From: Streptomyces seoulensis
Lineage (GTDB): Bacteria; Actinomycetota; Actinomycetes; Streptomycetales; Streptomycetaceae
Reading direction: 5' to 3'
DNA: 64,000 nt
NCBI RefSeq assembly: GCF_022846655.1
Contig: NZ_AP025667.1
Span: 3,633,001-3,697,000 of the forward strand
Shown here: positions 1,709 through 16,047 of the stretch, piece after piece
Position numbering within the stretch: position 1 is the first letter of the stretch
How the letters are laid out: each line of letters begins with the position of its first letter
The notes under the pieces: model-generated
The model's input: the letters and a program-made list of their open reading frames with translations, nothing else
Database searches by the model: none
Told to the model about the DNA's origin: nothing
Made by a program: the position numbers and the translations under genes

Positions 1709-4162
1709 TCACACCTCGTCCGTCACCAGATCCGCCCAGACCTGTTTGCCACCGCTGACCGGAACGGTTCCCCACGCGTCGGAGACCGCTTCGACCAGCA
1801 GGATGCCCCGGCCGCCGGTGGCCTCCCAGCCGACGCTGGTCGGCTTGAGGGGTCCGCGCGGCGAGGAGTCGGTCACCGCGATGCGCAGCCGGCGGCCGAC
1901 CAGGCTGAGATCGACCCGCACCTGCCCCTCCGTGTGCACGAGGGCGTTGGTGACCAGTTCGGACACGATCAGCAGGGCGGCGTCGGCGCTGTCCCCCGGC
2001 AGGTCCCAGGCGCGCAGGGTGCGGCGGACGAAGCGCCGGGCGTGCCGTACCGCCTCAGGGACCCGCCACACGCTCCAGCTCTCGCGGCGCGGGCGCACGG
2101 CCATGCCGTCGTAGCGCACCAGCAGCAGCGCCACGTCGTCGCCCCGGTGGGCGCCCGCGAGGAGGGCGTCGGCGGTCTGTCCCAGGTGGGCGGGGTCGGC
2201 GGCGGCGAGGTCGCGGGCGAGCCGGTCCATGCCGGTGTCGAGGTCGGTGCCGGAGGATTCGACCAGGCCGTCGGTGGTGAGCGCGAGGACCGTGCCGGGT
2301 CTCAGTCTCAGCGGGGTCATCGGGTACTCCGCACGGGTGAGCACGCCCAGCGGCGGACCGCCCTCGGCCTCCACGATCTCCGTACTGCCGTCCGGGTGGC
2401 GCAGCACCGGCTGGGGATGTCCGGCGCGTACGCACAGCGCGGTGCCCTGCTCCATGTCGATGTCGACGTAGACGCAGGTGGCGAAGAGGTCGGTCTCCAT
2501 GTCCAGCAGCAGCCGGTTGGCGTGGGCGACGACCACGTCGGGCGGGTGTCCCTCGGCGGCGTAGGCGCGCAGGGCGGTGCGCATCTGGCCCATGAGGGTG
2601 GCGGCGCCCGCGTTGTGGCCCTGGACATCGCCGATGACGAAGGCCACGTGGTTGTCGGCCAGCGGGATCACGTCGTACCAGTCGCCGCCGACCTCCAGCC
2701 CTTCGGTGGCGGGCAGATAGCGGGCGACCGCCTTGGCGCCGGGCAGCCGGGGCAGCCGGTGCGGCAGCAGGGTGCGCTGGAGCATGCCGACGAGTTCGTG
2801 CTCGGCGTCGAAGGCGTGGGCGCGGCGCAGGGCCTGTCCGGCGAGGGCGGCGCAGGCGGTGAGCAGGGCGCGCTCGTCGGGGGCGAACTGGTGCGGGCGG
2901 TCCCAGCCGATCAGGCACGCCCCGGCCATCCGGCCTCCGGCGGGCAGCGGCAGCACCGCGAGTCCGCCGGGCCCGACCCCGGCGAGGCCCGGTTCCAGGG
3001 CGGAGCCCGCGGGCCAGACGTGGGCGCGGCCGTCGCGCAGCGCGGCGGCGAGGGCGGGCATCGCGCGCACGGGCGCGTCGGGCCACTCGCCGCGCCATTC
3101 CGCCCGCCAGAGTTCGGGCCACGCCTCGGGTTCGGGCGGGTCGAGGACGGTGACGACGAGCCGGTCGTTCTCCAGTTCGGCCAGGGCGATGCGGTCGGCG
3201 CGCAGGGGTTTGCGCAGCGCGTCGACGACCGCCTGGCCGACGTCCTTGACGGTGCCCGCGGTGGCGAGATCGGCGGCGAGGCGCTGGACGCGGGCCACGT
3301 CGGTGACGTCGGAGCGGAGCTTGGAGACGTCCGCGACGGTGCCGACGAGCCGGGCGGGCCGGCCCTCGCCGCCCGGCAGGGGCCGGCCGCGCAGCCGGAG
3401 CCAGCGGGGCACGCCGGAGGGCTGGCGGACGCGGAACTCCAGCTCGCGTTCGCCGAGGGACATGTGGTCGGGTTCGACGACGGACATCAGCGCGGGCAGG
3501 TCCTCGGGCACGGTGAGCCCGAGCAGGGTCTCCACCTTGCCGTCGAAGTCGTCGCGCCCTATGCCGAAGAGCCGGAGGATCTCGTCGCCGACCTCGACCC
3601 GGCCGGTGTCCATGGCGAGGCTGAAGGCGTCGGCGGCGAGTTCACGGGTCTCGGCCGGGCCGGGCTCGGGAACGGCGACGGCGCGGGCGATCAGTTCCAG
3701 CGCGGCTCTCTCGTCGGAGCCGAAGCCGCCGGGCCGTTCCGCGACCGCGAGCAGGCAGCCGCCGCCCGGCCCGGCGAGCGGCAGGGCGGCCAGCGAGAAG
3801 TCCGGGGACGGTGTGCGGCGGCCCTCGGCGCGGTCGGCCACCTCGCTCGGGCCGAGCCAGAGGGGCCGGCCGGTGCGGTGTGCCTCGGCGACCGGCGCCG
3901 CGCCGTCGGCGGGATAGCCGTCGCGCAGGCCGTAGAGGGTGCGGGGCAGACCGACGGACTCCCTCAGGCGCAGCACGGCGGGGTCGTCGCCGGGGGCGTA
4001 CACGCCGGCGAACGCGGCGCCCGCGAGGACGAGTGCCTGTTCCAGGACGCGGCGGAGCCGGTCCTGGGTGGTGGGTGCGGCCATGAGTGTGGCGAGGACG
4101 TGCTCGGCACGCCCGGCTCCCGTTCTGCGCACCGCAGCACCCTCACTCGCCACGTTGGCCAT
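1709..4162 (-). CDS. Multidomain SpoIIE-type PP2C phosphatase with C-terminal anti-sigma-type kinase domain
   Basis: The 817-aa protein reads GAF-like (about 30-170), PAS-like (180-290), second GAF (300-450), SpoIIE/PP2C (about 470-670; GGDWYDVIPL and IGDVQGHNAGAA carry the metal-binding Asp residues) and HATPase_c (about 690-815; N-box SELVTNALVH, G2-like GRGILLV). In this family the PP2C part dephosphorylates a STAS anti-anti-sigma factor. The HATPase part resembles RsbW-type anti-sigma kinases, so one chain may hold both opposing activities of a partner-switching module. It is divergent from a second SpoIIE-type gene at 4413. No clear ribosome site precedes the ATG at 4162, so the exact start is uncertain. 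A STAS protein lies far away at 44301 and is not demonstrably its partner. Confidence 0.9.
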   Translation of the reverse strand: MANVASEGAAVRRTGAGRAEHVLATLMAAPTTQDRLRRVLEQALVLAGAAFAGVYAPGDDPAVLRLRESVGLPRTLYGLRDGYPADGAAPVAEAHRTGRPLWLGPSEVADRAEGRRTPSPDFSLAALPLAGPGGGCLLAVAERPGGFGSDERAALELIARAVAVPEPGPAETRELAADAFSLAMDTGRVEVGDEILRLFGIGRDDFDGKVETLLGLTVPEDLPALMSVVEPDHMSLGERELEFRVRQPSGVPRWLRLRGRPLPGGEGRPARLVGTVADVSKLRSDVTDVARVQRLAADLATAGTVKDVGQAVVDALRKPLRADRIALAELENDRLVVTVLDPPEPEAWPELWRAEWRGEWPDAPVRAMPALAAALRDGRAHVWPAGSALEPGLAGVGPGGLAVLPLPAGGRMAGACLIGWDRPHQFAPDERALLTACAALAGQALRRAHAFDAEHELVGMLQRTLLPHRLPRLPGAKAVARYLPATEGLEVGGDWYDVIPLADNHVAFVIGDVQGHNAGAATLMGQMRTALRAYAAEGHPPDVVVAHANRLLLDMETDLFATCVYVDIDMEQGTALCVRAGHPQPVLRHPDGSTEIVEAEGGPPLGVLTRAEYPMTPLRLRPGTVLALTTDGLVESSGTDLDTGMDRLARDLAAADPAHLGQTADALLAGAHRGDDVALLLVRYDGMAVRPRRESWSVWRVPEAVRHARRFVRRTLRAWDLPGDSADAALLIVSELVTNALVHTEGQVRVDLSLVGRRLRIAVTDSSPRGPLKPTSVGWEATGGRGILLVEAVSDAWGTVPVSGGKQVWADLVTDEV

Positions 4163-4412
4163 TACAGCGCGTGCGGGCGCGTGGCGCAGCCCCTGTGCAC
4201 CGACCGCGCGCGGTTTTTCCCTTCCGCTCGATTGCCCCGAAAGCCCCGGAGGCGTACGTATCCGCTCGTTCCGTGCCCCGGCATGGGCATCCCCGGAAGG
4301 GGTACTCGGACGTATCACCAGAAGTGGGACTCGTCCGCAGGTCAGGGGCGTGCGGTGGCCCCGCGCACGCGGCCGCGGTCTGGGAGAGGGGCCGTACGAG
4401 GAGGTGGTCGGC
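4163..4412. promoter_or_regulatory. Divergent intergenic region between the two SpoIIE-type genes
   Basis: The 250 bp between the starts at 4162 (minus) and 4413 (plus) must hold promoters for both phosphatase genes. The only local drop in G+C is around 4205-4240, near a TTTTTC run. No convincing -35/-10 pair or operator was identified. Confidence 0.4.
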
Positions 4413-6545
4413 GTGGCCGACACGCCGGGGCCCGCGCGGGAGCCCCCGGTGGCCGGCGGGGCCGGACGGCCCCTGCTCCCGGTCGCCCTGGCCGCGATGA
4501 TGGACGACGTGGGCGCGCACTCGGGCGCGGTCTACCTCCTCAGGCCGGACGTGCCGGTGCTGGAGATGGCGGTGATGGCGGGCCTGCCGCGGGCGTTCGC
4601 CGCGCCCTGGGAGCGGGTCGGGGTGAGCGCGCCGATCCCGGTCGCGGAGGCCGTACGGCTTCGGCGGCCGGTGTGGGTCTGCGGCGGGGAGGAGATGGCG
4701 CGCCGCTATCCCCGGATCGCGGTGGTGCTGCCCTACCCCTTCGCGCTGGCGGCGCTCCCGCTGGCTACGGAGGAGACCGTGTACGGCGCGGTGTTCGTGA
4801 CCTGGCCCGCCGGGCACGGCACGGAGCTGTCCGAGCGGGAGCGGACCCTGCTGACGGCGGGGTGCGAGCGGCTGACACGGCTGCTGGAGCGGGCCACGGC
4901 CGAGGACCGGACGCCGGGTCCCGAGCGCGATCAGGTGGCGTCGCCGGACGCGGCCGTCGTGGACACGGCGGGCCCGCAGGAGGCGGCGCGGATGGTGGCC
5001 CGGCTGCCCTACGGGCTGGTGTCCATGGACCTGCACGGCCGGATCGGGCACGTCAACGCGGCGGCCGCCGAACTGCTGGGCCGACCCGCGGACGAACTGC
5101 TGGGCACCCTGCCCTGGGTGTCGGTGCCGTGGCTCAACGACCCGCTGTACGAGGACCGTTACCGGGCCGCGCTGATCAGCCGCCGCCCGACCTCGTTCGT
5201 GGCGCTGCGGCCGCCCGGTCACTGGCTGTCCTTCCGGCTCTACCCGGGCAGTTCCGGGCTGAGCGTGCGGATCACACGGGTCCGGGCGCTCTCGGAGCGC
5301 ACGAGCACCCCGGCCGAGACCGGGCCGCACCGGCTGGTGACGATCTCCCGGCTGCTGAGCCTGACGGGGGCGCTGACCGAGGCGGTGGCGGTGGACGACC
5401 TGATCCAGCTCATCGCGGACGAGGTGGGTCCGGCGGTCGGCAGTCACGCCCTGGTGCTGCTCGCCTCCGAGGAGGGCCGGCTGCGGGTGCTCGGTCACCG
5501 CGGCTTCCCCGACGAGCGGGTGGTGCGGTGGTTCGACGGGATGCCGCTGAGCGAACGGACGCCGGGTACGCAGGCGTTGAGCAGTGGGGTGCCCGCGTTC
5601 TTCGAGTCGGTGGAGCATCTGGAGCGGCTGTATCCCGTGCGGCGCGAGACCCGCGACGGCTTCGCGGCCTGGGCGTATCTGCCGCTGGTCGCCTCCGGAC
5701 GCCCGGTGGGGACGTGCGTACTGGCCTACGCGGAGCCGCACTCCTTCCCCGCCGAGGAGCGGGCCGTACTGACCAGCCTCGGCGGTCTGATCGCCCAGGC
5801 GCTGGAGCGGACGCTGCTGTACGACGCCAAGCACCGGCTGGCGCACGGCCTGCAGGAGGCGCTGCTGCCGCACTCGCTGTCCCCGCCGCCCGGCATCGAG
5901 GCGGCCGCGCGCTATCTCCCGGCGACGCGGGGCATGGACATCGGCGGCGACTTCTACGACCTGGTGCCGACCCGGCCGCAGGCGTCCGCCGTCATCGGCG
6001 ACGTGCAGGGGCACAACGTGACGGCGGCCGCGCTGATGGGCCAGGTCCGCACCGGCGTCCGCGCGTACAGCGCGGTGGGGCAGTCGTCGGGCGAGGTGAT
6101 GAGCAGCATCAACCGGCTGCTGATCGACCTCGGCAGCGAACTGTTCGCCAGTTGCCTCTATCTACGCCTCGATCCGGCGCACGGCCGGGCCGTCATGGCG
6201 CGGGCCGGGCATCCGCCGCCGCTGCTCAGGCTGCCGGACGGCCGGGTACGGGTGCTGGACCTGGCCGGGGGCCCGCTGCTCGGCATCGACCCGGAGGCGG
6301 CGTATCCGACGACGGAGGTCTCGCTCGCGCCGGGTTCGGTGCTCGCCCTCTATACGGACGGCCTGGTGGAGTCGCCCGGTGTGGACATCGAGGACGCGCT
6401 GACCGACCTGGGCGCGCTGTTCTCCGAGGCGGGGGGCGGTCCGCTGGAGGAGGTGGCGGACGCGCTGGTCCGGCACGGCACGGCGGGCCGGGACCGGGTG
6501 GACGACGTGGCGATGCTGCTTCTCCGGGCGCGGGACGGGAATTGA
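4413..6545 (+). CDS. SpoIIE-type PP2C phosphatase with GAF and PAS sensory domains
   Basis: The 710-aa protein has an N-terminal GAF-like region (about 20-150), a PAS domain (about 185-290; LPYGLVSMDLHGRIGHVNAA), a second GAF (about 320-470) and a C-terminal SpoIIE/PP2C phosphatase (about 490-705; MDIGGDFYDLV, VIGDVQGHNV and a final VDDVAMLLL with conserved acidic residues). Unlike its divergent neighbour it lacks a HATPase domain. The GTG start is chosen because GAGGAGG ends about 8 nt upstream. It likely dephosphorylates a STAS protein in response to a signal sensed by GAF/PAS, but the partner is not identified here. Confidence 0.9.
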   Translation: MADTPGPAREPPVAGGAGRPLLPVALAAMMDDVGAHSGAVYLLRPDVPVLEMAVMAGLPRAFAAPWERVGVSAPIPVAEAVRLRRPVWVCGGEEMARRYPRIAVVLPYPFALAALPLATEETVYGAVFVTWPAGHGTELSERERTLLTAGCERLTRLLERATAEDRTPGPERDQVASPDAAVVDTAGPQEAARMVARLPYGLVSMDLHGRIGHVNAAAAELLGRPADELLGTLPWVSVPWLNDPLYEDRYRAALISRRPTSFVALRPPGHWLSFRLYPGSSGLSVRITRVRALSERTSTPAETGPHRLVTISRLLSLTGALTEAVAVDDLIQLIADEVGPAVGSHALVLLASEEGRLRVLGHRGFPDERVVRWFDGMPLSERTPGTQALSSGVPAFFESVEHLERLYPVRRETRDGFAAWAYLPLVASGRPVGTCVLAYAEPHSFPAEERAVLTSLGGLIAQALERTLLYDAKHRLAHGLQEALLPHSLSPPPGIEAAARYLPATRGMDIGGDFYDLVPTRPQASAVIGDVQGHNVTAAALMGQVRTGVRAYSAVGQSSGEVMSSINRLLIDLGSELFASCLYLRLDPAHGRAVMARAGHPPPLLRLPDGRVRVLDLAGGPLLGIDPEAAYPTTEVSLAPGSVLALYTDGLVESPGVDIEDALTDLGALFSEAGGGPLEEVADALVRHGTAGRDRVDDVAMLLLRARDGN

Positions 6546-6658: not shown

Positions 6659-8113
6659 TCAGTTGGACCCGGTGAGGGAGGAGGTGCCGCCTCGGTGACC
6701 GGAGCGGCCGTGGTGCTTGGTGCCCTGCTGGTCGGCCGCCGCGCCCTGCTCGTCGGCACCGGCGCCCGCCTGCTCGTCGGCACCCGCGCCCGCGCCGGCC
6801 TGGTCGTCGGCGCCGCCGCCGATCTGGTCGCCGCCCGCCTGGTCCCCGGCACCGGCCTCGTCACCGGCACCGGCCTCGTCACCGGCACCGGCCTGGTCAC
6901 CCGCGCCGGCCTCGTCACCCGCACCGGCCTCGTCACCGGCGCCCGCCTGGTCACCCGCGCCGGCACCGCCGTCGCCGAGGGTGGCGCCGGTGGCCGCGAG
7001 GGCGGTGGTGACCGGCTGGAAGAAGGTCTCGCCGCCGCTGGTGCAGTCGCCGCTGCCGCCGGAGGTCAGGCCGATCGCCGCGCCCTCCTGGGTGAACAGC
7101 GAGCCGCCGCTGTCGCCGGGCTCGGCGCACACGTCGGTCTGGATGAGGCCGGTGACGGTGTCGACGCCGTTCGGGTCGGTCTCGCTCTGGAAGTTGACGG
7201 TGGCGTCGAGGCCGGTGACCTGGCCGTCGTGCAGTCCGGTGGTGGAGCCCATGCGGAACACGGCGGAGCCGACCGTGGCCTCCGCGGCCTGGGTGATCTG
7301 CACGATCTGGCCGTTGCCCGCGTTGACCTCGCTGGGCGCCTCGGTCGCCGGGTCGTCGTACTTGACGAGCGAGAAGTCGCCCTCACCGGGGAAGGTCGCC
7401 TGGTCCACGGTGGCGAGGGGCTGGCCGGTCTCGGAGTCGGACCACTGCTTGGCCGCGACCCCGCAGTGACCGGCCGTCAGGAAGGCCGGGCTGCCGTCGG
7501 CGGCGGTGACGTTGAAGCCCAGGGAGCAGCGGACGTTGCCGCCCTGCACCTGGGAGAAGATGGCGTCGCCGCCGGAGACGAAGGTCTTGAAGGTGCCGCC
7601 GGTCTTCTTCAGCGTGGCCGTGCCGGAGCCGAGACCGTCGACGGTGGACTCCAGCCGGTCCCACTTGGCGCCGGTCACCGTGCTGTCGGCGCTGACGATC
7701 ACCTTGTTGGTGCGCGGGTCCACGGCCCAGGCGGTGCCGGGGATGGCCGCCTTGGTCCGCAGGGTCTTCGCGGCGGACTGGAGGTCGGCGGTGCTGTTCT
7801 CCACCTGCCGTACGACCGCGCCCGCACTCTTCGCACGTGCGACGGCGTCACCGTCGCCGACGGCGTTGACGACGAGCTGCCGCTTGGCGCTGTCGTAGTA
7901 GGAACCGGCGAACTGGCCGCCGAGGGACTGCTTCAACTGGGCGGCGAGCAGCGTGGCGTCGGTGGCCTTCAGGGGCTTCACGGTGCCCGTCGCGGCCGTG
8001 CCCTCGTCCTGGGACGCCATGGCGTTGGGCAGCAGAAGGGCTGCCGCTCCGAGCGCCGCCACACCGCCCACCGCTATCGCGGCCTTGCGCTTGGGCATTC
8101 GCTTGTGACTCAA
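6659..8113 (-). CDS. Secreted S1-family (streptogrisin/alpha-lytic-like) serine protease with repetitive acidic C-terminal tail
   Basis: The 484-aa product is a pre-pro-protease. The TTG at 8113 is chosen because AGGAGGT lies 7 nt upstream and a signal peptide (MPKRKAAIAVGG...) follows at once. A propeptide spans about residues 45-180. The mature domain carries the triad His216 (LTAGHCG), Asp246 (GEGDFSLVKY) and Ser335 (EPGDSGGSLF). After about residue 381 comes an unusual 104-aa tail of AGAGD(E/Q) and AGADEQ repeats ending in a basic KHHGRSGHRGG stretch. Streptogrisins normally end soon after the catalytic domain or carry a chitin-binding module, so this tail is noteworthy. It may tether or space the enzyme at the cell surface (inference). 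Confidence 0.92.
   Translation of the reverse strand: MSHKRMPKRKAAIAVGGVAALGAAALLLPNAMASQDEGTAATGTVKPLKATDATLLAAQLKQSLGGQFAGSYYDSAKRQLVVNAVGDGDAVARAKSAGAVVRQVENSTADLQSAAKTLRTKAAIPGTAWAVDPRTNKVIVSADSTVTGAKWDRLESTVDGLGSGTATLKKTGGTFKTFVSGGDAIFSQVQGGNVRCSLGFNVTAADGSPAFLTAGHCGVAAKQWSDSETGQPLATVDQATFPGEGDFSLVKYDDPATEAPSEVNAGNGQIVQITQAAEATVGSAVFRMGSTTGLHDGQVTGLDATVNFQSETDPNGVDTVTGLIQTDVCAEPGDSGGSLFTQEGAAIGLTSGGSGDCTSGGETFFQPVTTALAATGATLGDGGAGAGDQAGAGDEAGAGDEAGAGDQAGAGDEAGAGDEAGAGDQAGGDQIGGGADDQAGAGAGADEQAGAGADEQGAAADQQGTKHHGRSGHRGGTSSLTGSN
6715..6966. repeat. 18-bp tandem repeat tract encoding the protease tail
   Basis: On the plus strand, units close to GGCCTCGTCACCGGCACC recur every 18 bp from about 6838 to 6966, about seven copies. 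On the protein side the residue after AGAGD runs Q,E,E,Q,E,E,Q, so a 54-bp higher-order repeat overlies the 18-bp monomer. A looser AGADEQ-type tract continues leftwards to about 6715. The tract stays in frame and probably varies in copy number between strains. Confidence 0.85.
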
Positions 8114-8754
8114 CTTCTCGACCTCCTGGGTACGGGGGTCTGCCGCTGTCGGGCAGTTCGTAGGGGGGTGCCGGCTGGCTACAGGTACGGGCGGTTCACC
8201 CGGCGCGTTCAATTCCAATTGCCAACTTCGTTGTGTGCGTGGGGAATCAGCCACGACGGCGCCGGATCCGGCACCCAGGCACCCCGGTCACGCCGAGTCA
8301 CCGGCGCATCACCCTCCGCCCAGCACATGGAGCGGAATCCCCGCTTCAGGGAATCTGCACATCCCGCGCCCAACGAGGTCACGTCCGAGGGGGTTTCCGC
8401 ACCGGCGCACGTGTCCCGGACACGCGTTTGGTGAGGTGTGCCGGATTCGCGTTACCGGCGGTAGTGGAGACGGCGCGACGATGGCGCGGGGAATGTGAAG
8501 GAGCGCCAGGCGCGACGTGCGCACGCCTGCACGAATGACCCCTACTGTGCGCCGAACTCGCTGGTGAGAGCCCTGAGTAAGTGGAATCGGGCGCGGCGTG
8601 CGTGCTTTGATCCATCGCATCGCGGGGCCCGCCCCAGGGCTGCCGGAGACGGCGGCCGGAAGGTCCGGGAACCCCTCGCGGTCGCGGCCGTCATCTGTCC
8701 CCAGAGGGGGCCGCTCTCCCCCTTGTGAAGACCCATACGAAGGGAAGTTCCATC
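8114..8754. other. Intergenic region upstream of the protease and the double-glycine peptide
   Basis: These 641 bp between divergent starts hold no gene I can support. Reading frames such as the GTG at 8495 have no ribosome site and no recognisable product. The protease RBS (AGGAGGT at about 8121-8127, complement) and the peptide RBS (AGGGAAG, 8741-8747) lie at the two ends. The promoter of the peptide operon should be here, but I see no convincing -10/-35 pair. Confidence 0.5.
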
Positions 8755-8970
8755 ATGAACTCCACCCCCCGTGTCGAGACCGTCGAGATCTCGGACGCCG
8801 AGCTGGACAACGTTTCCGGCGGCCTGTCCGTGAACGCCCTCTCCACCGTGACCGGCGCCGTCAACGGCATCGCCCCGGTTTCCGGCCTGGTGGACACCGC
8901 CGTCGGCACCGTCGAGGGTGTCACCGGCCTCAACACGGCCCCGGTCACCGGCCTGGTCGCCGGTCTCTGA
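8755..8970 (+). CDS. Double-glycine leader peptide precursor (bacteriocin-like, cysteine-free)
   Basis: The 71-aa product has a 23-residue leader ending in ELDNVSGG, the signature cut by C39 peptidases, and a 48-residue core starting LSVNALSTVTG. The core is rich in Gly, Val, Thr, Ala and Leu, has no Cys, Lys, Arg or aromatic residue, and carries only Asp47 and Glu54. Three GxxxG motifs sit at 34-38, 51-55 and 66-70, and APVSGLV/APVTGLV is an internal repeat. The ATG is chosen because AGGGAAG lies 7 nt upstream; an in-frame GTG at 8725 lacks such a site. Next come a HlyD-like gene and two NHLM-type ABC transporters. With no Cys, lanthionine formation is excluded. Activity (antimicrobial, signal or surface peptide) is unknown. 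Confidence 0.88.
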   Translation: MNSTPRVETVEISDAELDNVSGGLSVNALSTVTGAVNGIAPVSGLVDTAVGTVEGVTGLNTAPVTGLVAGL

Positions 8971-8986
8971 CCGCACCTCGGTGTCA

Positions 8987-9026
8987 CCGAGAGTCCCGGA
9001 CCCCCTCGCGGGTCCGGGACTCTCGG
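8987..9026 (+). terminator. Perfect 17-bp hairpin between precursor and exporter genes (terminator/attenuator)
   Basis: Bases 8987-9003 pair without mismatch with 9010-9026 around a 6-nt loop, starting 16 bp after the precursor stop. The next gene begins at 9079 on the same strand. A partial terminator here would give much more precursor than exporter mRNA, and the stem could also protect the short transcript's 3' end. Confidence 0.85.
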
Positions 9027-9078
9027 GCGTCCCGAAACACTTCCGTGCCGTCGTCTCTCCTCGGGTGAGGGAAGTTCC

Positions 9079-9885
9079 GTGCAGTTCCGCCAACAGGCCC
9101 TCGCCAAGCTCCAGTCGCCGGAGGATCTCGACCTCCCGGTGCGACTGGCACGCCCGCAGGGGTGGCTCGTCCTCGGAATCACCGTCGTCGTGATGGCGGC
9201 AGCCTCGGTGTGGGCGGTGACCGGTTCGGTCGCCTCCACCGTGAGCGCCCCGGCCATCCTCACGCACGGGCAGGGCAGTTACATCCTCCAGAGCCCCGTG
9301 GCCGGTCAGGTCACCGGCGTGCTCGCCAAGCAGGGCCAGCACCTGCCCGCGAACGCGCCCGTGCTCAAGGTCCGTACCGCGCAGGGCGATTCGGTGATCC
9401 GTACCGTCGCGGCCGGCCGGGTCACCGCGCTGGCCGCCACCATCGGGCAGATCGTGCAGACCGGCGCCGACGTGGCCGCCGTGGAGAAGGTCGCCCACGA
9501 CTCGGACCCCTTGTACGCGACCGTCTACGTCCCCGCCGAGAACGCCGCCGCCATCCCGGCCCACGCCACCGTGGACCTGGCCGTGTCCTCCGTACCCGCC
9601 GAGCGCTACGGCGTGCTGCGCGGCCGCGTGAAGTCGGTGGACCGCGCGGCGCAGTCCGCCCAGTCGATCGGCGCGTTCCTCGGTGACAGCCAGCTCGGCC
9701 AGCAGTTCACGCGCAAGGGCCGCCCGGTCGCCGTCCTCGTCACGCTCGACAAGTCGGCTTCCGCGAAGAGCGGTTACCGCTGGTCCTCGGCCGGGGGGCC
9801 GCCCTTCGGGCTCGACTCCATGACCCTGGCCTCCGGTTCGGTCCACCTGACCGACCAGCGTCCGATCGATTGGCTGCTCCCGTGA
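9079..9885 (+). CDS. HlyD-like membrane-fusion/adaptor protein of the peptide exporter
   Basis: The 268-aa protein has one N-terminal membrane segment (about 28-50) followed by two lipoyl-like half motifs (SYILQSPVAGQVTGVLAKQG and RTVAAGRVTALAATIGQIVQ) and a beta-rich region, the layout of short NHLM-type HlyD proteins. It lacks the long coiled-coil hairpin of Gram-negative HlyD, as expected without an outer membrane. It probably couples with the two ABC proteins to move or hold the peptide outside the membrane. The GTG start follows GAGGGAAG with a TTCC spacer like that of the precursor gene. Its stop overlaps the next start (GTGA), which indicates translational coupling. Confidence 0.88.
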   Translation: MQFRQQALAKLQSPEDLDLPVRLARPQGWLVLGITVVVMAAASVWAVTGSVASTVSAPAILTHGQGSYILQSPVAGQVTGVLAKQGQHLPANAPVLKVRTAQGDSVIRTVAAGRVTALAATIGQIVQTGADVAAVEKVAHDSDPLYATVYVPAENAAAIPAHATVDLAVSSVPAERYGVLRGRVKSVDRAAQSAQSIGAFLGDSQLGQQFTRKGRPVAVLVTLDKSASAKSGYRWSSAGGPPFGLDSMTLASGSVHLTDQRPIDWLLP

Positions 9886-12116
9886 CCACCCCGACCGACA
9901 CCGCGCAGGAGAACCGCGGCCGCAGACGCGCCGCGCCCGCCCGCCGCCCGGTGCCCAAACCCCGTGGCGGCACGGTCCGTACGCCCACCGTGCTCCAGAT
10001 GGAGGCCGTCGAGTGCGGCGCCGCCTCCCTGGCCATGGTGCTGGGCCACTACGGCCGCCATGTCCCGCTAGAGGAACTCCGCATCGCCTGCGGTGTCTCC
10101 CGCGACGGCTCACGCGCGAGCAACCTGCTCAAAGCGGCCCGGAGTTACGGGCTGACCGCCAAGGGCATGCAGATGGACCTGGCGGCGCTCGCCGAGGTGC
10201 GCGCCCCGGCCATCCTGTTCTGGGAGTTCAACCACTACGTCGTCTACGACGGCATGGGCCGCCGCTTCGGACGGCGCGGGGTGTACATCAACGACCCCGC
10301 CAAGGGCCGCCGGTTCGTGCCCATGGAGGAGTTCGACGGCAGCTTCACCGGTGTCGTGCTGGTGCTGGAGCCGGGCGAGGACTTCAGCAAGGGCGGCCGC
10401 AAGCCCGGTGTGCTCGGCGCGATGCCCGCCCGGCTGCGCGGCACGGCGGGCACCCTGCCCGCGGCGGTGCTGGCGAGCCTGCTGCTGGTCGCGGTGGGCG
10501 CGGCGGTGCCGGCGCTCAGCCGCACCTACATCGACATGTTCCTGATCGGCGGCCAGACCTCGCTGCTCGGCGTGCTGTTCGCGTCGATGGCGACCTGTGT
10601 GGCGCTGACCCTGGTGCTGACCTGGCTCCAGCAGGCCAATCTGCTGCACGGCCGGATCATCTCCTCCACCCTGTCCAGCGCCCGCTTCCTGCGCCATCTG
10701 CTGCGGCTGCCGGTCACCTTCTTCTCCCAGCGCTCCCCCGCCGACCTGGTGCAGCGCCTGCAGTCCAACGACCAGGTCGCCGAGACCCTGGCCCGCGACC
10801 TCGCGGCGGCGGGCGTGGACGCGATCGTGGTCGTGCTGTACGCGGTGCTGCTGTACACCTACGACCCGCAGCTCACGTTCGTCGGCATCGGTGTGGCGCT
10901 GCTGAACATCGTGGCGATGCGGCTGGTGATCCGGCTGCGCGCGACCCGTACCGCGAAGCTGCGCGCGGACACCGCCCGGCTGACCAACACCTCCTACACG
11001 GGCCTTCAGCTCATCGAGACGATGAAGGCGACCGGCGGGGAGGACGGCTACTTCCGCAAGTGGGCCGGGCAGCACGCGGCGACGCTGGAGGAGCAGCAGA
11101 AGCTCGGGGTGCCGAGCGCCTGGCTGGGAGTGGTCGCGCCGACGCTGGCCACCTTCAACAGCGCGCTGATCCTGTGGATCGGCGGTCTGCGGGCGATCGA
11201 GGGGCACATCTCGGTCGGTCTGCTGGTGGCGTTCCAGGCGCTGGTGGCCCGCTTCACCGCGCCGCTCACCCGGCTCAACGGCGTGGCGGGGCGCATCCAG
11301 GACTTCGCGGCGGACGTGGCCCGGCTGAAGGACGTGGAGAACTTCCAGGCCGACCCGCTGTACGCGCGTCCCGGCGGCTCCGACGACACCCGCAGGCTGC
11401 GCGGGCACGTCGAGCTGGAGGGCGTGACCTTCGGCTACAGCCCCCTGGACAAGCCGCTGCTGGCCGAGTTCGACCTGACGGTGGGGCCGGGGCAGCAGGT
11501 GGCGCTGGTCGGCGGTTCGGGCAGCGGCAAGTCGACGGTGTCCCGGCTGATATCGGGCCTGTACGCACCTTGGGAGGGCGTGATCCGGATCGACGGGCGC
11601 CGTCTCGAGGACATCCCGCGCGGCGCGCTCGCGGCCTCGGTGTCCTTCGTGGACCAGGACGTGTTCCTCTTCGAGGGCTCGGTCCGCGACAACGTGGCGC
11701 TGTGGGACCCCTCGATCCCGGACGAGGCCGTGGAGGACGCGCTGCGCGACGCCGCGCTGTACGACGTGGTGGCACGCAGGCCGGGCGGGGTGCACAGCAA
11801 GGTCGAGCAGGACGGCCGGAACTTCTCCGGCGGCCAGCGGCAGCGGCTGGAGATCGCGCGGGCGCTGGTGCGCCGCCCCAGCATCCTGGTGCTGGACGAG
11901 GTGACCAGCGCGCTGGACGCGGAGACGGAGCTGACCGTGATGGACAACCTGCGCCGGCGCGGCTGCGCCTGCGTGGTGATCGCCCACCGGCTGTCCACGG
12001 TCCGCGACAGCGACGAGATCGTGGTGCTCCAGCACGGCACGGTCGTGGAGCGGGGCAGGCACGAGGAGCTGGTGGCGCGCGGTGGCGCGTACGCGGCGCT
12101 GGTCAGGGAGCGGTGA
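9882..12116 (+). CDS. NHLM-type peptidase-containing ABC transporter (C39 peptidase, permease and ATPase)
   Basis: The 744-aa protein is a complete leader-cleaving exporter. An N-terminal C39 peptidase carries Cys45 (QMEAVECGAASLAMVLGHYG), His118 (EFNHYVVYDG) and Asp138 (INDPAKG). A six-helix permease spans about residues 165-460. The ATPase has Walker A GGSGSGKST (about 544-552), signature SGGQRQRL and Walker B ILVLDE. C39 domains cut after double-glycine leaders such as VSGG in the precursor at 8755. The GTG at 9882 overlaps the HlyD stop by 4 bp; an in-frame TTG at 9870 is less likely. It is the maturation and export engine of the locus. Confidence 0.95.
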   Translation: MTTPTDTAQENRGRRRAAPARRPVPKPRGGTVRTPTVLQMEAVECGAASLAMVLGHYGRHVPLEELRIACGVSRDGSRASNLLKAARSYGLTAKGMQMDLAALAEVRAPAILFWEFNHYVVYDGMGRRFGRRGVYINDPAKGRRFVPMEEFDGSFTGVVLVLEPGEDFSKGGRKPGVLGAMPARLRGTAGTLPAAVLASLLLVAVGAAVPALSRTYIDMFLIGGQTSLLGVLFASMATCVALTLVLTWLQQANLLHGRIISSTLSSARFLRHLLRLPVTFFSQRSPADLVQRLQSNDQVAETLARDLAAAGVDAIVVVLYAVLLYTYDPQLTFVGIGVALLNIVAMRLVIRLRATRTAKLRADTARLTNTSYTGLQLIETMKATGGEDGYFRKWAGQHAATLEEQQKLGVPSAWLGVVAPTLATFNSALILWIGGLRAIEGHISVGLLVAFQALVARFTAPLTRLNGVAGRIQDFAADVARLKDVENFQADPLYARPGGSDDTRRLRGHVELEGVTFGYSPLDKPLLAEFDLTVGPGQQVALVGGSGSGKSTVSRLISGLYAPWEGVIRIDGRRLEDIPRGALAASVSFVDQDVFLFEGSVRDNVALWDPSIPDEAVEDALRDAALYDVVARRPGGVHSKVEQDGRNFSGGQRQRLEIARALVRRPSILVLDEVTSALDAETELTVMDNLRRRGCACVVIAHRLSTVRDSDEIVVLQHGTVVERGRHEELVARGGAYAALVRER

Positions 12117-12117
12117 G

Positions 12118-14934
12118 ATGACGTCCACGCACGACGGTGATCTGGTGCTGGGCGCCCTCGGCTCGCTGGGCACGCGGGTCGACTGCGCCGGGCTGAACCG
12201 GCTGGATCTCGAAGGACCGCAGGTGCTCTGGCTGGTGGCGGCCGGCGCCCTCGACCTGTTCGCGGTGGACGCCGCCGAGCAGGGCCACTGGCACCACCTG
12301 GGCCGGCTGGAGGCGGGCGCGCTGCTGCTGGGCCCGGTCGCCGGCCCCCAGCACTCCCTGGTGGCCCGCCCGGTGCGGGACTGTGTGGTGCACCGGGTGA
12401 ACCTGCGCGAGCTGTACCAGGGCGCGCACACCGAGACCTGGTCGTACGACGAGTACGGCAACCCGCAGTACGTGCCGCCCTCCTCCAGCCCGCTGGAGTA
12501 CGCCCTCGCGCTCGGCGTCGGCCGCGGCCTGTCGGTGCTGTTCCAGGCGCCGCTGACCGAGGACCGGTCGGTGGCGCCGTCGGACGACGACGTGTTCTGG
12601 ATGCAGGTGCCGCCGGGCAGCGCCCAGTACGGCTCGATGTACGGCGCGGAGGCCGCCGCCGACCTGCTGATGGACCCGGCGCTGTGGCAGAGCCTGGTCG
12701 ACCAGCAGTACCGGCTGCTGACCGCGCTCGACCGGTGGATCGAGCAGTTGGAGCGCACCCACGAGACGCGTGCGGCCGCCGGTATCAAGGCCGGTGAGGC
12801 GGTACGCGCCCACGCCGACCAGACGCTGCTCGCCTCCATCGGCAAGCGCTCGGCCCGGCGGACGACCGCGGCCGACGCGGACGCCGGGTACGCGGCCTGC
12901 AAGCTGGTCGCCCAGGCGGCCGGGATCACGCTGGCCGATCCGGCGCGCGGCATCGGCGAGAGCGAGCGGCTGGACCCGGTGGAGCGGGTGGCGCTGGCCT
13001 CGCGGGTGCGCATCCGGGCGGTGCGCCTGGAGGGCCGCTGGTGGCGCGAGAACGTGGGCCCGCTGGTCGGGCACCGGGCGCTGTCCGGGGCGCCGGTGGC
13101 GCTGCTGTGGCGGCGCGGCGGCTATGTCGCCGTACAGCCGGCGACGGGCCGGGAGACGCCGGTGGAGAAGGCGAACGCGGAGGAGTTCGAGCCGCGTGCG
13201 GTGATGTTCTACCGGCCGCTGCCCGAGCGGCGGCTCGGCCCGCTGGGCCTGCTCAGGTTCAGCCTGGGCGGGACGCGGAACGATCTGCTGAACCTGCTGC
13301 TGGCCGGGCTGGTCACGGTGGTGATCGGCGCGCTGGTGCCCATCGCCACGGGCAAGGTGCTCGGCGAGTACGTGCCGCAGGCGCGGGAGAACCTGATCGC
13401 GCAGGTGTGTCTCGCGGTGATGCTCAGCGGGGTGGTGTCGGCGGCGTTCACGCTGCTGGAGAACCTGACCATCCTGCGGCTGGAGGGCCGGATCGAGGGT
13501 GCGCTCCAGCCGGCGGTCTGGGACCGGCTGCTGAGGCTGCCGACCCGGTTCTTCAGCGGGCGCTCCACCGGTGAGCTGGCGAGTGCCGCGATGGGCATCA
13601 GCTCGATCCGGCGGCTGCTGGCGGGCGTCGGACCGGTGGTCGCGCAGTCGGTGACGGTCGGCGCGATGAACGTCGGCCTGCTGCTGTACTACAGCGTGCC
13701 GATGGCACTGGCCGCGATCGGGATGCTCGTGGTGATCGCCGCGGTCTTCCTGGGGCTCGGGCTGTGGCAGGTGCGCTGGCAGCGGCGGCTCGTGACGCTC
13801 GGCAACAAGCTGAACAACCAGGCGTTCCAGACCCTGCGCGGTCTGCCCAAGCTGCGGGTGGCGTCGGCGGAGAACTACGCGTACGCCGCGTGGGCCCGCG
13901 AGTTCGCGCGCAGCCGGGAGCTCCAGCAGAAGGTCGGCCGGATCAAGAACCTCAGTTCGGTGCTGGGCGCGGTGTATCTGCCGATCTGCACGCTGGTGAT
14001 GTTCATGCTGCTGGCGGGTCCGGCGAAGGGCGCGATGTCGGCGGCCTCGTTCCTCACCTTCAGCACGGCGGTGACGATGGTGCTGACCTCGGTCACCCAG
14101 CTCACCGGCGCGTTCGTGTCGGCGGTGGCGGCGCTGCCGCTGTTCGAGGAGATCCGCCCGGTGCTGGACGCCACCCCCGAGGTGCGGGCGGGGAACACCC
14201 GGCCGGGACCGCTGACCGGCGCCCTGGAGGCCCGGCGGCTGTCCTTCCGGTACTCCGACGACGGCCCGCTGGTCCTGGACGACGTGTCCTTCTCGGTGCG
14301 TCCCGGCGAGTTCGTCGCGGTGGTCGGACCGAGCGGCTGCGGCAAGTCGACCCTGCTGCGCCTGCTGATCGGCTTCGACAAGCCGGTCTCCGGCAGTGTG
14401 CTGTACGACGGTCAGGACCTGGGCGCGCTGGACCAGTCGGCGGTGCGGCGCCAGTGCGGGGTGGTGCTCCAGCACGCCCAGCCGTTCAACGGTTCCATCA
14501 TGGACGTGGTCTGCGGCACCGAGCCGTACACGCCGGAGGAGGTCATGGCGGCCATCGAGCTGGCGGGCCTCGCGGAGGACGTCCAGCGGATGCCGATGGG
14601 GCTGCACACCATCGTCGCCGGCAGCGGCGCGGTCTCCGGCGGGCAGCGCCAGCGGCTGATGATCGCGCAGGCGTTGATCCGCCGGCCGCGCATCCTCTTC
14701 TTCGACGAGGCGACCAGCGCCCTGGACAACGACACCCAGCGCACGGTCATCGAGTCCACCCGCAAGCTGAACGCCACCCGGGTCGTCATCGCGCACCGGC
14801 TGTCCACCGTGATGGACGCCGACCGGGTGGTGGTGATGGAGGACGGCAAGGTGATCCAGCAGGGCACCCCCGCCGAACTGCTCGCCGACACCGGCGGCCG
14901 GATGCACGAACTGGTGCGCAGGCAGATGGCGTAG
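12118..14934 (+). CDS. NHLM-type ABC transporter, second permease/ATPase subunit with large N-terminal domain
   Basis: The 938-aa protein has an N-terminal region of about 380 residues unlike the first transporter. It contains RRGGYVAVQPATGRETPV, resembling a degenerate C39-like substrate domain without catalytic Cys. Then follow a permease (about 385-680) and an ATPase with Walker A GPSGCGKST (about 737-745), SGGQRQRL and Walker B ILFFDEATSALD. This matches the second transporter of NHLM bacteriocin loci, which probably pairs with the C39-bearing one. The ATG follows the previous stop by 1 bp, with AGGGAG 7 nt upstream. The gene ends inside a hairpin. Confidence 0.93.
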   Translation: MTSTHDGDLVLGALGSLGTRVDCAGLNRLDLEGPQVLWLVAAGALDLFAVDAAEQGHWHHLGRLEAGALLLGPVAGPQHSLVARPVRDCVVHRVNLRELYQGAHTETWSYDEYGNPQYVPPSSSPLEYALALGVGRGLSVLFQAPLTEDRSVAPSDDDVFWMQVPPGSAQYGSMYGAEAAADLLMDPALWQSLVDQQYRLLTALDRWIEQLERTHETRAAAGIKAGEAVRAHADQTLLASIGKRSARRTTAADADAGYAACKLVAQAAGITLADPARGIGESERLDPVERVALASRVRIRAVRLEGRWWRENVGPLVGHRALSGAPVALLWRRGGYVAVQPATGRETPVEKANAEEFEPRAVMFYRPLPERRLGPLGLLRFSLGGTRNDLLNLLLAGLVTVVIGALVPIATGKVLGEYVPQARENLIAQVCLAVMLSGVVSAAFTLLENLTILRLEGRIEGALQPAVWDRLLRLPTRFFSGRSTGELASAAMGISSIRRLLAGVGPVVAQSVTVGAMNVGLLLYYSVPMALAAIGMLVVIAAVFLGLGLWQVRWQRRLVTLGNKLNNQAFQTLRGLPKLRVASAENYAYAAWAREFARSRELQQKVGRIKNLSSVLGAVYLPICTLVMFMLLAGPAKGAMSAASFLTFSTAVTMVLTSVTQLTGAFVSAVAALPLFEEIRPVLDATPEVRAGNTRPGPLTGALEARRLSFRYSDDGPLVLDDVSFSVRPGEFVAVVGPSGCGKSTLLRLLIGFDKPVSGSVLYDGQDLGALDQSAVRRQCGVVLQHAQPFNGSIMDVVCGTEPYTPEEVMAAIELAGLAEDVQRMPMGLHTIVAGSGAVSGGQRQRLMIAQALIRRPRILFFDEATSALDNDTQRTVIESTRKLNATRVVIAHRLSTVMDADRVVVMEDGKVIQQGTPAELLADTGGRMHELVRRQMA

Positions 14935-15172: not shown

Positions 15173-15595
15173 TTAGAACGCGAAGACGCTGCTGCCGAGC
15201 GCGTCCTTCGCGCAAGCGTTGCCGAACGTGCGCTCGTAGGCGACCCGCTGGCCCTGCCAGACACCCTGGACGGTGACGACGACGGGGTCGTACAGCCGGG
15301 TGCAGTGGACATCGGCGCGGGCCTTGAGGGCGTTGAAGTCGCCTCGTATGCCGCGCAGTTCGGCACAGGCTTCCGCCGCTGCCGGGTGGGTGCCGGTGGC
15401 CGTCGGGGCGCAGCTCAGGGTGACGGCGCGCTCCGGGGTGACCGTGGTCGCGCTGTCGCCGTGGCCGGTGGTGAGGACCAGTGCCGAGGGCGCGTACAGG
15501 GAGGCAGGCGCGGCTACGGCGGAACCGGTCAGGTGTCCGCAGACGGCGGCGGCGGTGAGGCCGAGGGCCGCGGCCCAGCGCGCGGTGTTCCGCAT
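15173..15595 (-). CDS. Secreted Streptomyces subtilisin inhibitor (SSI) family protein, P1 arginine
   Basis: The 140-aa precursor has a signal peptide ending near residue 30 (AVAAPA) and a mature domain with family landmarks: [37 protein letters not shown] and the C-terminal GSSVFAF. Cysteines 62-77 and 98-128 have the SSI disulfide spacing. In SSI the reactive site is Cys-Pro-Met; here it reads CTRLYDP, placing Arg100 at P1, which predicts trypsin-like rather than subtilisin specificity. The ATG at 15595 is chosen because GGAAGG lies 9 nt upstream; the ATG at 15604 directly abuts it. Family members are abundant secreted dimers that restrain the producer's own proteases. Confidence 0.95.
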
Positions 15596-16047
15596 GGTGT
15601 GCATCCTTCCGCTCGATCATTGAGGGTGTGCCGGCCGGTGCCCGGTGGGGCGCCGCAGCGGCGAGCGCCACTCTGCCGAGTCCGCAGCCGGAACACACAT
15701 CCCACCCATGACTTTCAGTAACATTGCGTATTGAATCAGTGGCGCGAAGTCACGGAATTCGAACACGTCGGCCCCGCAACGCCGGGGATTGCGAACACGC
15801 GCACCGGTCCGATGGCCGGAACTCACCGCCTGAGCAATCGGCCTGAAACATTCCGCTCCCCCGCGCGGGGGCCGCTTTCACGATCCGCCCGTGACACCTT
15901 CACGATTCCTCGCGTTCGCACGGGTTTCGCCGGACCGGGTGGGTGGGCGAACCCTCCATCGGGGCGGTCCTTGATGGATGAAACATCCCCTGGCCCCACG
16001 TCCCGATCCGGCCGTACCGTCGGCAGCCCCCGTCCCTGGAGCCTCTG
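15596..16047. other. Intergenic region between the inhibitor and the NCS1 permease
   Basis: No gene is supported in these 452 bp. The segment near 15705-15740 is AT-richer than its surroundings and probably holds the inhibitor promoter. A 14-bp palindrome CCCCCGCGCGGGGG lies at 15858-15871, and short CACGATTC-like repeats occur around 15880-15910. No operator can be named. Confidence 0.45.

Follow-up and report, generated by a model that had tools for sequence, protein, structure and literature searches.

A 64,000-nt stretch of the 6.54-Mb single-contig genome of Streptomyces seoulensis (hereafter the window) carries an intact four-gene unit encoding a small peptide precursor and its putative export machinery (Table 1). 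The genes follow one another in the order precursor, HlyD-like adaptor, C39 peptidase-ABC exporter (ABC1) and second ABC protein (ABC2), with all frames open and the HlyD and ABC1 frames overlapping by GTGA. An earlier reading of this DNA (the original prediction) had described an NHLM-type export locus, and translation confirmed its account of a 71-aa precursor with a leader ending in VSGG and a 48-residue core free of Cys, Lys, Arg and aromatic residues, followed by the three transport genes. Among the NHLM/NHLP models, TIGR03796 and TIGR03797 were matched above their cut-offs and the HlyD model TIGR03794 just below its own (151.9 vs 156.2 bits). At 268 aa vs the 421 positions of that model, the adaptor is short and matches best in the C-terminal part of TIGR03794, and it may have lost the part that spans the periplasm in Gram-negative bacteria. 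The ABC1 protein contains C45, H118 and D138, which we take to be the C39 peptidase motifs, together with the ABC motifs; the C39 motifs are kept in all 105 relatives with a usable ABC1. ABC2 also has a set of ABC motifs, no peptidase domain was found in it with NCBIfam and Pfam, and the S. seoulensis genome contains one C39 match. At the sequence level, export of the peptide and cutting of its leader after VSGG are strongly indicated.

Table 1. Features of the export locus and its divergent neighbour, in positions of the window
Feature	Position	Strand	Evidence or remark
Promoter-like element: AAGTGG, 16 nt, CGTGCTTTGATC	8579..8612	+	Conserved upstream motif
Conserved 5' stretch, likely ribosome-binding site (GAAGGGAAG)	8680..8754	+	Alignment of 80 upstream regions and the window
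Precursor peptide gene, 71 aa	8755..8970	+	Translation
Leader MNSTPRVETVEISDAELDNVSGG, ending in VSGG	8755..8823	+	G22 and G23 in 80/80 close relatives; TIGR01847 18.4 bits vs cut-off 15.7
48-residue core, internal duplication of ~21 residues (aa 28-46 with 49-68)	8824..8967	+	Self-alignment
17-bp perfect hairpin, 6-nt loop, in the precursor/hlyD gap	8987..9026	+	Proposed partial terminator or processing element
HlyD-like adaptor, short form, 268 aa	9079..9885	+	TIGR03794 under cut-off; HlyD_3 over cut-off
C39 peptidase-ABC exporter (ABC1), 744 aa	9882..12116	+	TIGR03796 1026.7 vs 853.3 bits
C39 leader-peptidase domain	9981..10379	+	PF03412 E=8e-36
Second ABC permease/ATPase (ABC2), 938 aa	12118..14934	+	TIGR03797 881.8 vs 709.4 bits; Pfam
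Alpha-lytic-type serine protease, divergent neighbour, possibly unrelated	6659..8107	-	PF02983 and PF00089

The locus is the unit published as SCO0753-0756 of S. coelicolor, as judged by gene order, which is the same in the accessible passages of PMC6629963, and by the published quantitative PCR primers for SCO0753 and SCO0754. That is, primers 0753for, 0753rev, 0754for and 0754rev match corresponding places of an S. hyderabadensis locus (L075) with 0, 0, 1 and 0 mismatches, vs 6, 3, 5 and 5 in the window, where the best match of 0754for lies elsewhere. The likeness to this unit, noted in the original prediction, is therefore borne out. The protein search gave 667 relatives of the precursor at E<=1, and among the 120 matches listed all those with a visible taxon were Streptomyces, many of them named 'type A2 lantipeptide'. 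All 80 named loci have precursor, HlyD and ABC1 in the order seen in the window, and 78 have ABC2 at least partly, the other two (L012 and L050) ending before it; since these are the best 80 of 237 loci by similarity to the precursor, conservation counts taken from them are upper values. A precursor match (E<=1e-3) was obtained in 131 of 199 Streptomyces genomes. ABC2 was found over its cut-off in 143 and partially in three more (G001, G119 and G145), and these 146 were counted as exporter-bearing; the remaining 53 were counted as exporter-less, including G038, whose full-length ABC2 scores 627.5 bits, under the cut-off. A precursor of this type was present in 144 of the 146 exporter-bearing genomes, 130 of them recognised by the search with the window precursor (not all were opened), 5 by the profile of unlinked peptides described below and 9 by a regular expression for the leader beside the exporter. 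The exceptions are G120, with a truncated contig, and G188, with an exporter about 50% identical in ABC1. A second NHLM exporter of this divergent kind, for which no precursor of the present type was recognised, was seen in both G167 (L156) and G188 (L159). Among 296 genomes of the phylum, ABC2 was matched at E<=1e-180 in 11, of which 8 were Streptomyces.

The core contains 7 Thr, 3 Ser and 8 Gly, and its net charge of -2 agrees with the earlier description of the peptide as acidic. Cys is absent from all 80 close cores and from all 43 cores of a diverse set made up of the window precursor, 10 database proteins of unchecked context and 32 linked loci (L131, L133, L141, L146, L147, L153, L154 and close loci were left out). 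Lys or Arg occurs in 6 of these 43 cores, whose net charges range from -4 to 0. The NCBI name 'type A2 lantipeptide', also given to a relative after a match to a like-named NCBI record (accessible part of PMC13047742), was rejected as ill-fitting because cores without Cys cannot supply lanthionine rings; moreover, the lantipeptide precursor families stayed under their cut-offs (PF04604 13.6 vs 21.7 bits, NF040664 13 vs 46). The precursor gave no match at E<=1 to the nitrile hydratase-type (TIGR03793) or Nif11-type (TIGR03798) leaders. The peptide could nevertheless be a ribosomally synthesised and post-translationally modified peptide (RiPP) with a LanM, a YcaO or another enzyme encoded elsewhere acting in trans on its Ser and Thr residues, as other NHLM loci use RiPP-modifying enzymes (accessible part of PMC2887384). 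The original prediction of no modifying enzyme held for the four unit genes and the four neighbours covered by our profile and Pfam scans, but LANC_like matches at 2 places and YcaO matches at 3 lie elsewhere in the S. seoulensis genome. These candidates are 0.17-0.99 Mb distant, there is no Cys for lanthionines, and no RiPP enzyme was found among 20 neighbour genes picked at 12 loci of the unlinked peptides described below (3 of the 20 had no Pfam match). We regard modification in trans as very improbable, and the absence of core modification as likely from the sequence.

Three GxxxG pairs do occur at residues 34-38, 51-55 and 66-70, as first described, but their proposed role as a defining, designed helix-packing motif could not be upheld. 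With 8 Gly in 48 residues, three pairs are not significant (shuffle P=0.069), and among the 80 close relatives G34, G38, G51, G55 and G70 are kept in 80, 76, 78, 80 and 80, respectively, whereas G66, in the third site, is kept in only 22. The internal duplication is better supported, with a self-alignment score of 48 that was reached by 1 of 1000 shuffles. Periodicity across the family is strongest at 100-110 degrees (z 5.8 and 9.7), with lower values at 120 and 130 degrees (z 3.4 and 4.9) and no peak at 160-180, the shuffles and z-scores treating related rows as independent; taken by itself, the window core has a helical moment that is significant at 110 degrees (P=0.009). AlphaFold placed helices at residues 23-36, 43-57 and 62-70, a weak hint given the low confidence of the model (pLDDT 59, pTM 0.24). 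An amyloid reading, prompted by weak FapA matches (18.2 vs 100 bits; E<=0.01 in 8 of 43 members), was dropped because the periodicity is helix-like. A search of solved structures with the 43-row profile yielded a non-significant best match (E=0.37) to the end of a Nif11 protein.

Alignment of the 80 upstream regions with that of the window revealed a conserved module centred on GATTGG, followed after 16 nt by CGTGCTTTGATC. The 11-mer GTGCTTTGATC occurs without mismatch in 72 of the 80 close relatives. The short half CGTGCTTWSATC occurs once in the S. seoulensis genome (8601-8612 of the window) vs twice for its backwards control, so that this half alone is not above chance there. The spaced pattern TTGG-N16-CGTGCTTWSATC was found in 52 of 121 genomes, once in each (backwards control, 0). 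Each of these 52 matches precedes a precursor of the same orientation by 56-142 nt, and on this count the element is specific to the promoters of precursor genes. When up to 2 mismatches were allowed within 250 nt upstream, GTGCTTTGATC was detected for 79 of the 80 close linked precursors and 35 of the 39 distant ones, compared with 11 of 2346 windows used as controls, this limit having been chosen after the result for the close relatives was seen. The RNA structure of the 5' region was not convincing (z-score -1.38).

In S. coelicolor, expression of SCO0753-0756 is reported to be controlled by the morphology-linked two-component system Sco5282/5283, and Sco5282 may be considered a candidate reader of the element. 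In the accessible passages of PMC6629963, no gene is induced more strongly in the dispersed sco5282-D125G strain than SCO0753 (log2 6.3), SCO0754-0756 are induced to 4.25-4.4 and the whole unit is almost silent in the null mutant; the same passages point out the absence of Cys and propose a possible role at the hyphal surface. The lower induction of SCO0754-0756 than of SCO0753 would fit a function of the intergenic hairpin as a partial terminator. Between precursor and hlyD, 74 of 100 loci have a stem of at least 9 bp, as do 7 of the 80 ABC1-internal stretches of 108 nt that served as controls, a comparison in which the gap lengths vary among loci and the controls are of fixed length. Codon use in the precursor (GCC 0.90, TCC 0.85, ACC 0.83, GTC 0.71) departs from that in ABC1 (0.46, 0.34, 0.61 and 0.42), which may be a mark of high expression. 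As far as the accessible parts of other studies go, SCO0753 is raised in an aor1 mutant along with two SapB-cluster genes (PMC5733086), and SCO0756 is raised in a polyprenol phosphate mannose synthase mutant (PMC5882110) and slightly down in a further data set (-0.8 and 0.6, apparently log2 and fold change; PMC6414726). For a 'bacteriocin' cluster, the identity of which with SCO0753 could not be confirmed, the accessible part of PMC4895711 gives 796,462 as a primary start site.

The same leader was also found, with different cores, in 18 peptides encoded apart from any exporter, and 17 of these unlinked siblings have GTGCTTTGATC at up to 2 mismatches within 250 nt upstream. Six further siblings, opened later and not used to set the mismatch limit, all fell within it, 5 of them exactly. 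The 18 come from a selection of 20 of the weaker matches in the genus-wide precursor search, of which they are the unlinked ones, and the profile built from them (A2), which includes the shared leader, matched in 135 of the 146 exporter-bearing genomes (132 with ABC2 over its cut-off, 3 with a partial ABC2) and in none of the 53 exporter-less ones. At least two A2 matches were obtained in 61 genomes, giving 77 extra matches, not all of which were opened and at least one of which is linked (G145). In a database search, A2 matched 956 proteins, some of which may be of the linked type since the profile holds the shared leader; among the 120 listed, most were named 'hypothetical', and a small number bore the name 'class IIb bacteriocin' or that of 'type A2 lantipeptide'. 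A looser DNA pattern for the leader matched in 160 of 199 genomes, 19 of which belong to the 53 without an exporter; its backwards control matched once. None of the 11 hits in the 7 exporter-less genomes with listed places was a small leader peptide, since on reading they lay in long frames, lacked a plausible start or had an unlike composition. Twelve stretches opened in exporter-bearing genomes comprised the 6 further siblings, 5 non-peptides and a tandem pair in G145 (L216), where two different precursors lie about 0.6 kb apart and about 5 kb before ABC2, with GTGCTTTGATC at 2 and 3 mismatches. The motif DQDLDTVSGG, found inside long frames in exporter-bearing and exporter-less genomes alike (L207, L209, L210 and L211), looks like part of larger proteins rather than a leader peptide. 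Taken together, the sequences probably represent a dispersed, promoter-sharing peptide family that depends on the exporter. Three sibling loci with similar cores (L113, L116 and L120) lie near a gene with sigma-70 regions 2 and 4, a possible local regulator, and an SSI-like gene lies about 0.8 kb from the sibling of L109.

A peptide that is preceded by a double-glycine leader scoring over the TIGR01847 cut-off, and exported by a C39 transporter, could be a class II bacteriocin, or one half of a two-peptide class IIb bacteriocin, inserting into the membranes of competitors alone or with an unlinked sibling. The GxxxG pairs of the core would fit, as would the class IIb name that NCBI gives to a few siblings, 4 of 18 of which match TIGR03949 at E<=0.01 (the only score shown, 19.4 vs 21.5 bits, is under the cut-off). 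The core is also the most divergent part of the unit: mean distances over 100 loci are 0.28 for the core, 0.24 for HlyD, 0.13 for the leader and 0.11 for ABC1, and pN/pS, from 30 sampled sequences each, is highest in the core (0.53, inflated by the low pS of the precursor, 0.18 vs 0.28-0.33), followed by the protease (0.44), HlyD (0.36), the leader (0.30), ABC2 (0.27) and ABC1 (0.19). Across the 100 loci, however, core distance tracks ABC1 distance (rho 0.74; 0.85 for HlyD), and within the 80 close relatives, whose precursors are 71 distinct proteins, the core is strongly kept. These figures describe a core that is constrained but not frozen. None of the 43 diverse cores is positively charged, the 108-nt gap between precursor and hlyD leaves no room for an immunity gene (no search for one was made elsewhere), and the S. 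seoulensis genome provides no second partner by leader pattern or A2 profile. The antimicrobial role considered in the original prediction is weakened, because core divergence follows the exporter, the gap has no space for an immunity gene, the unit is present in most sampled Streptomyces and its published control is linked to morphology; we consider a bacteriocin unlikely.

The published two-component control (accessible part of PMC6629963) would also suit a peptide that is secreted as a pheromone or stress signal and perceived by such a system, similar to the double-glycine communication peptides of streptococci. Six of the 43 diverse members match the VP1 pheromone model weakly (E<=0.01), the window peptide itself scoring 15.7 bits against a cut-off of 85, and a gene for a PAS/GAF-SpoIIE sensor-phosphatase lies upstream of the locus at 3939-6545. 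Conversely, no kinase or response regulator was found within the four-gene unit in the NCBIfam and Pfam scan, and a hydrophobic 48-residue core with codon use fitting bulk production is not what such a signal would call for. This explanation, too, appears rather improbable.

We give an even chance to the interpretation that the unit makes an unmodified, non-antibiotic, self-directed surface or signalling peptide and that one exporter serves dispersed substrates in many species; of the functions considered, the putative self-directed role at the surface or in signalling has the best support. A regulator, perhaps the ortholog of Sco5282/5283 by analogy with S. coelicolor, would switch on the dedicated promoter so that the precursor is made in bulk, while the hairpin would hold exporter mRNA below precursor mRNA. 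The C39-ABC protein would cut after VSGG, and the second ABC protein and the short HlyD would help to release the 48-residue core, a hydrophobic and slightly anionic peptide without Cys that would stay unmodified. The peptide could then form amphipathic helices at the hyphal envelope and act on the surface, cohesion or signalling of its producer and not on killing rivals. In other species the unlinked siblings may use the same exporter, as suggested by shared leader, shared promoter and co-occurrence. More tentatively, and with more doubt than confidence, we propose an exported-peptide regulon dispersed over Streptomyces genomes, in which one NHLM exporter and one dedicated type of promoter serve a core peptide that is widespread, unmodified and helix-forming, together with interchangeable unlinked siblings, which would coat or tune the hyphal surface under envelope-stress control.

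Several observations weigh against the favoured interpretation. For the peptide itself, a literature search, from which subscription papers were mostly absent, yielded no recognised report of a product, of leader cutting or of the phenotype of a mutant. The window itself has AAGTGG where the close-relative consensus has GATTGG, so that the exact TTGG half is missing, and the single hits of the leader pattern and of A2 in the S. seoulensis genome are both the precursor, that is, neither detected a sibling there. Genome G043 is a reverse exception, having a weak precursor match (1.9e-4) and no exporter over the cut-off, and the co-occurrence of profile and exporter (Fisher 9e-38) counts genomes without correction for phylogeny. 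The helical moment of the window core at 100 degrees gave P=0.125. To these must be added the low AlphaFold confidence, the high divergence and pN/pS of the core and the LANC_like and YcaO genes described above.

The surroundings of the unit are less clearly related to it. The alpha-lytic-type protease is found upstream in 75 of 80 close loci (tblastn), and in the window it has a long AGAGDQ/AGAGDE repeat tail close to its C-terminus. A subtilisin-inhibitor (SSI) gene lies just 3' of the exporter (15173-15604, - strand). A protease-inhibitor module including this SSI was rejected, as an SSI gene is within reach in 6 of 80 loci only (10 of the 80 being short contigs).

The streptococcal double-glycine peptides VP1 and BriC are unmodified, share exporters and have non-killing roles, like those proposed here, although they belong to another genus with other regulators and another exporter family. 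SapB and the chaplins are hydrophobic secreted morphogens of Streptomyces hyphae, to which the present peptide is likened by description and not by sequence; SapB is a modified lanthipeptide-like product and the chaplins use Sec, both unlike the system in the window. NHLP/NHLM systems, in the accessible part of PMC2887384, share the trio of HlyD, C39-ABC and ABC proteins and have several precursors per exporter, whereas the window leader is of neither the nitrile hydratase nor the Nif11 type and no modifying enzyme was seen locally. The central view of the original prediction, an NHLM exporter beside a Cys-free peptide without an enzyme in the unit, stands; the weight it gave to GxxxG does not. 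Most of the interest lies beyond it, in the promoter element, the unlinked siblings, the hairpin and the duplication, none of which it mentioned. These four are not described in the passages on SCO0753-0756 in PMC6629963, and the literature search, within the scope given above, yielded no recognised report of siblings or promoter element. What we have is a known and widely conserved Streptomyces unit, to which the promoter element, the unlinked siblings, the co-occurrence of leader and exporter and the hairpin are new.

The public name of a precursor carried by 131 of 199 Streptomyces genomes is often lantipeptide, which its sequence contradicts. If one exporter does serve many scattered peptides under one promoter type, promoter and leader combined would serve to find such peptides, and knocking out one exporter in S. 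coelicolor would probe all of them at once. Mycelial dispersal, a trait relevant to fermentation, has a published link to a two-component system, and the peptide would then supply this link with a concrete effector.

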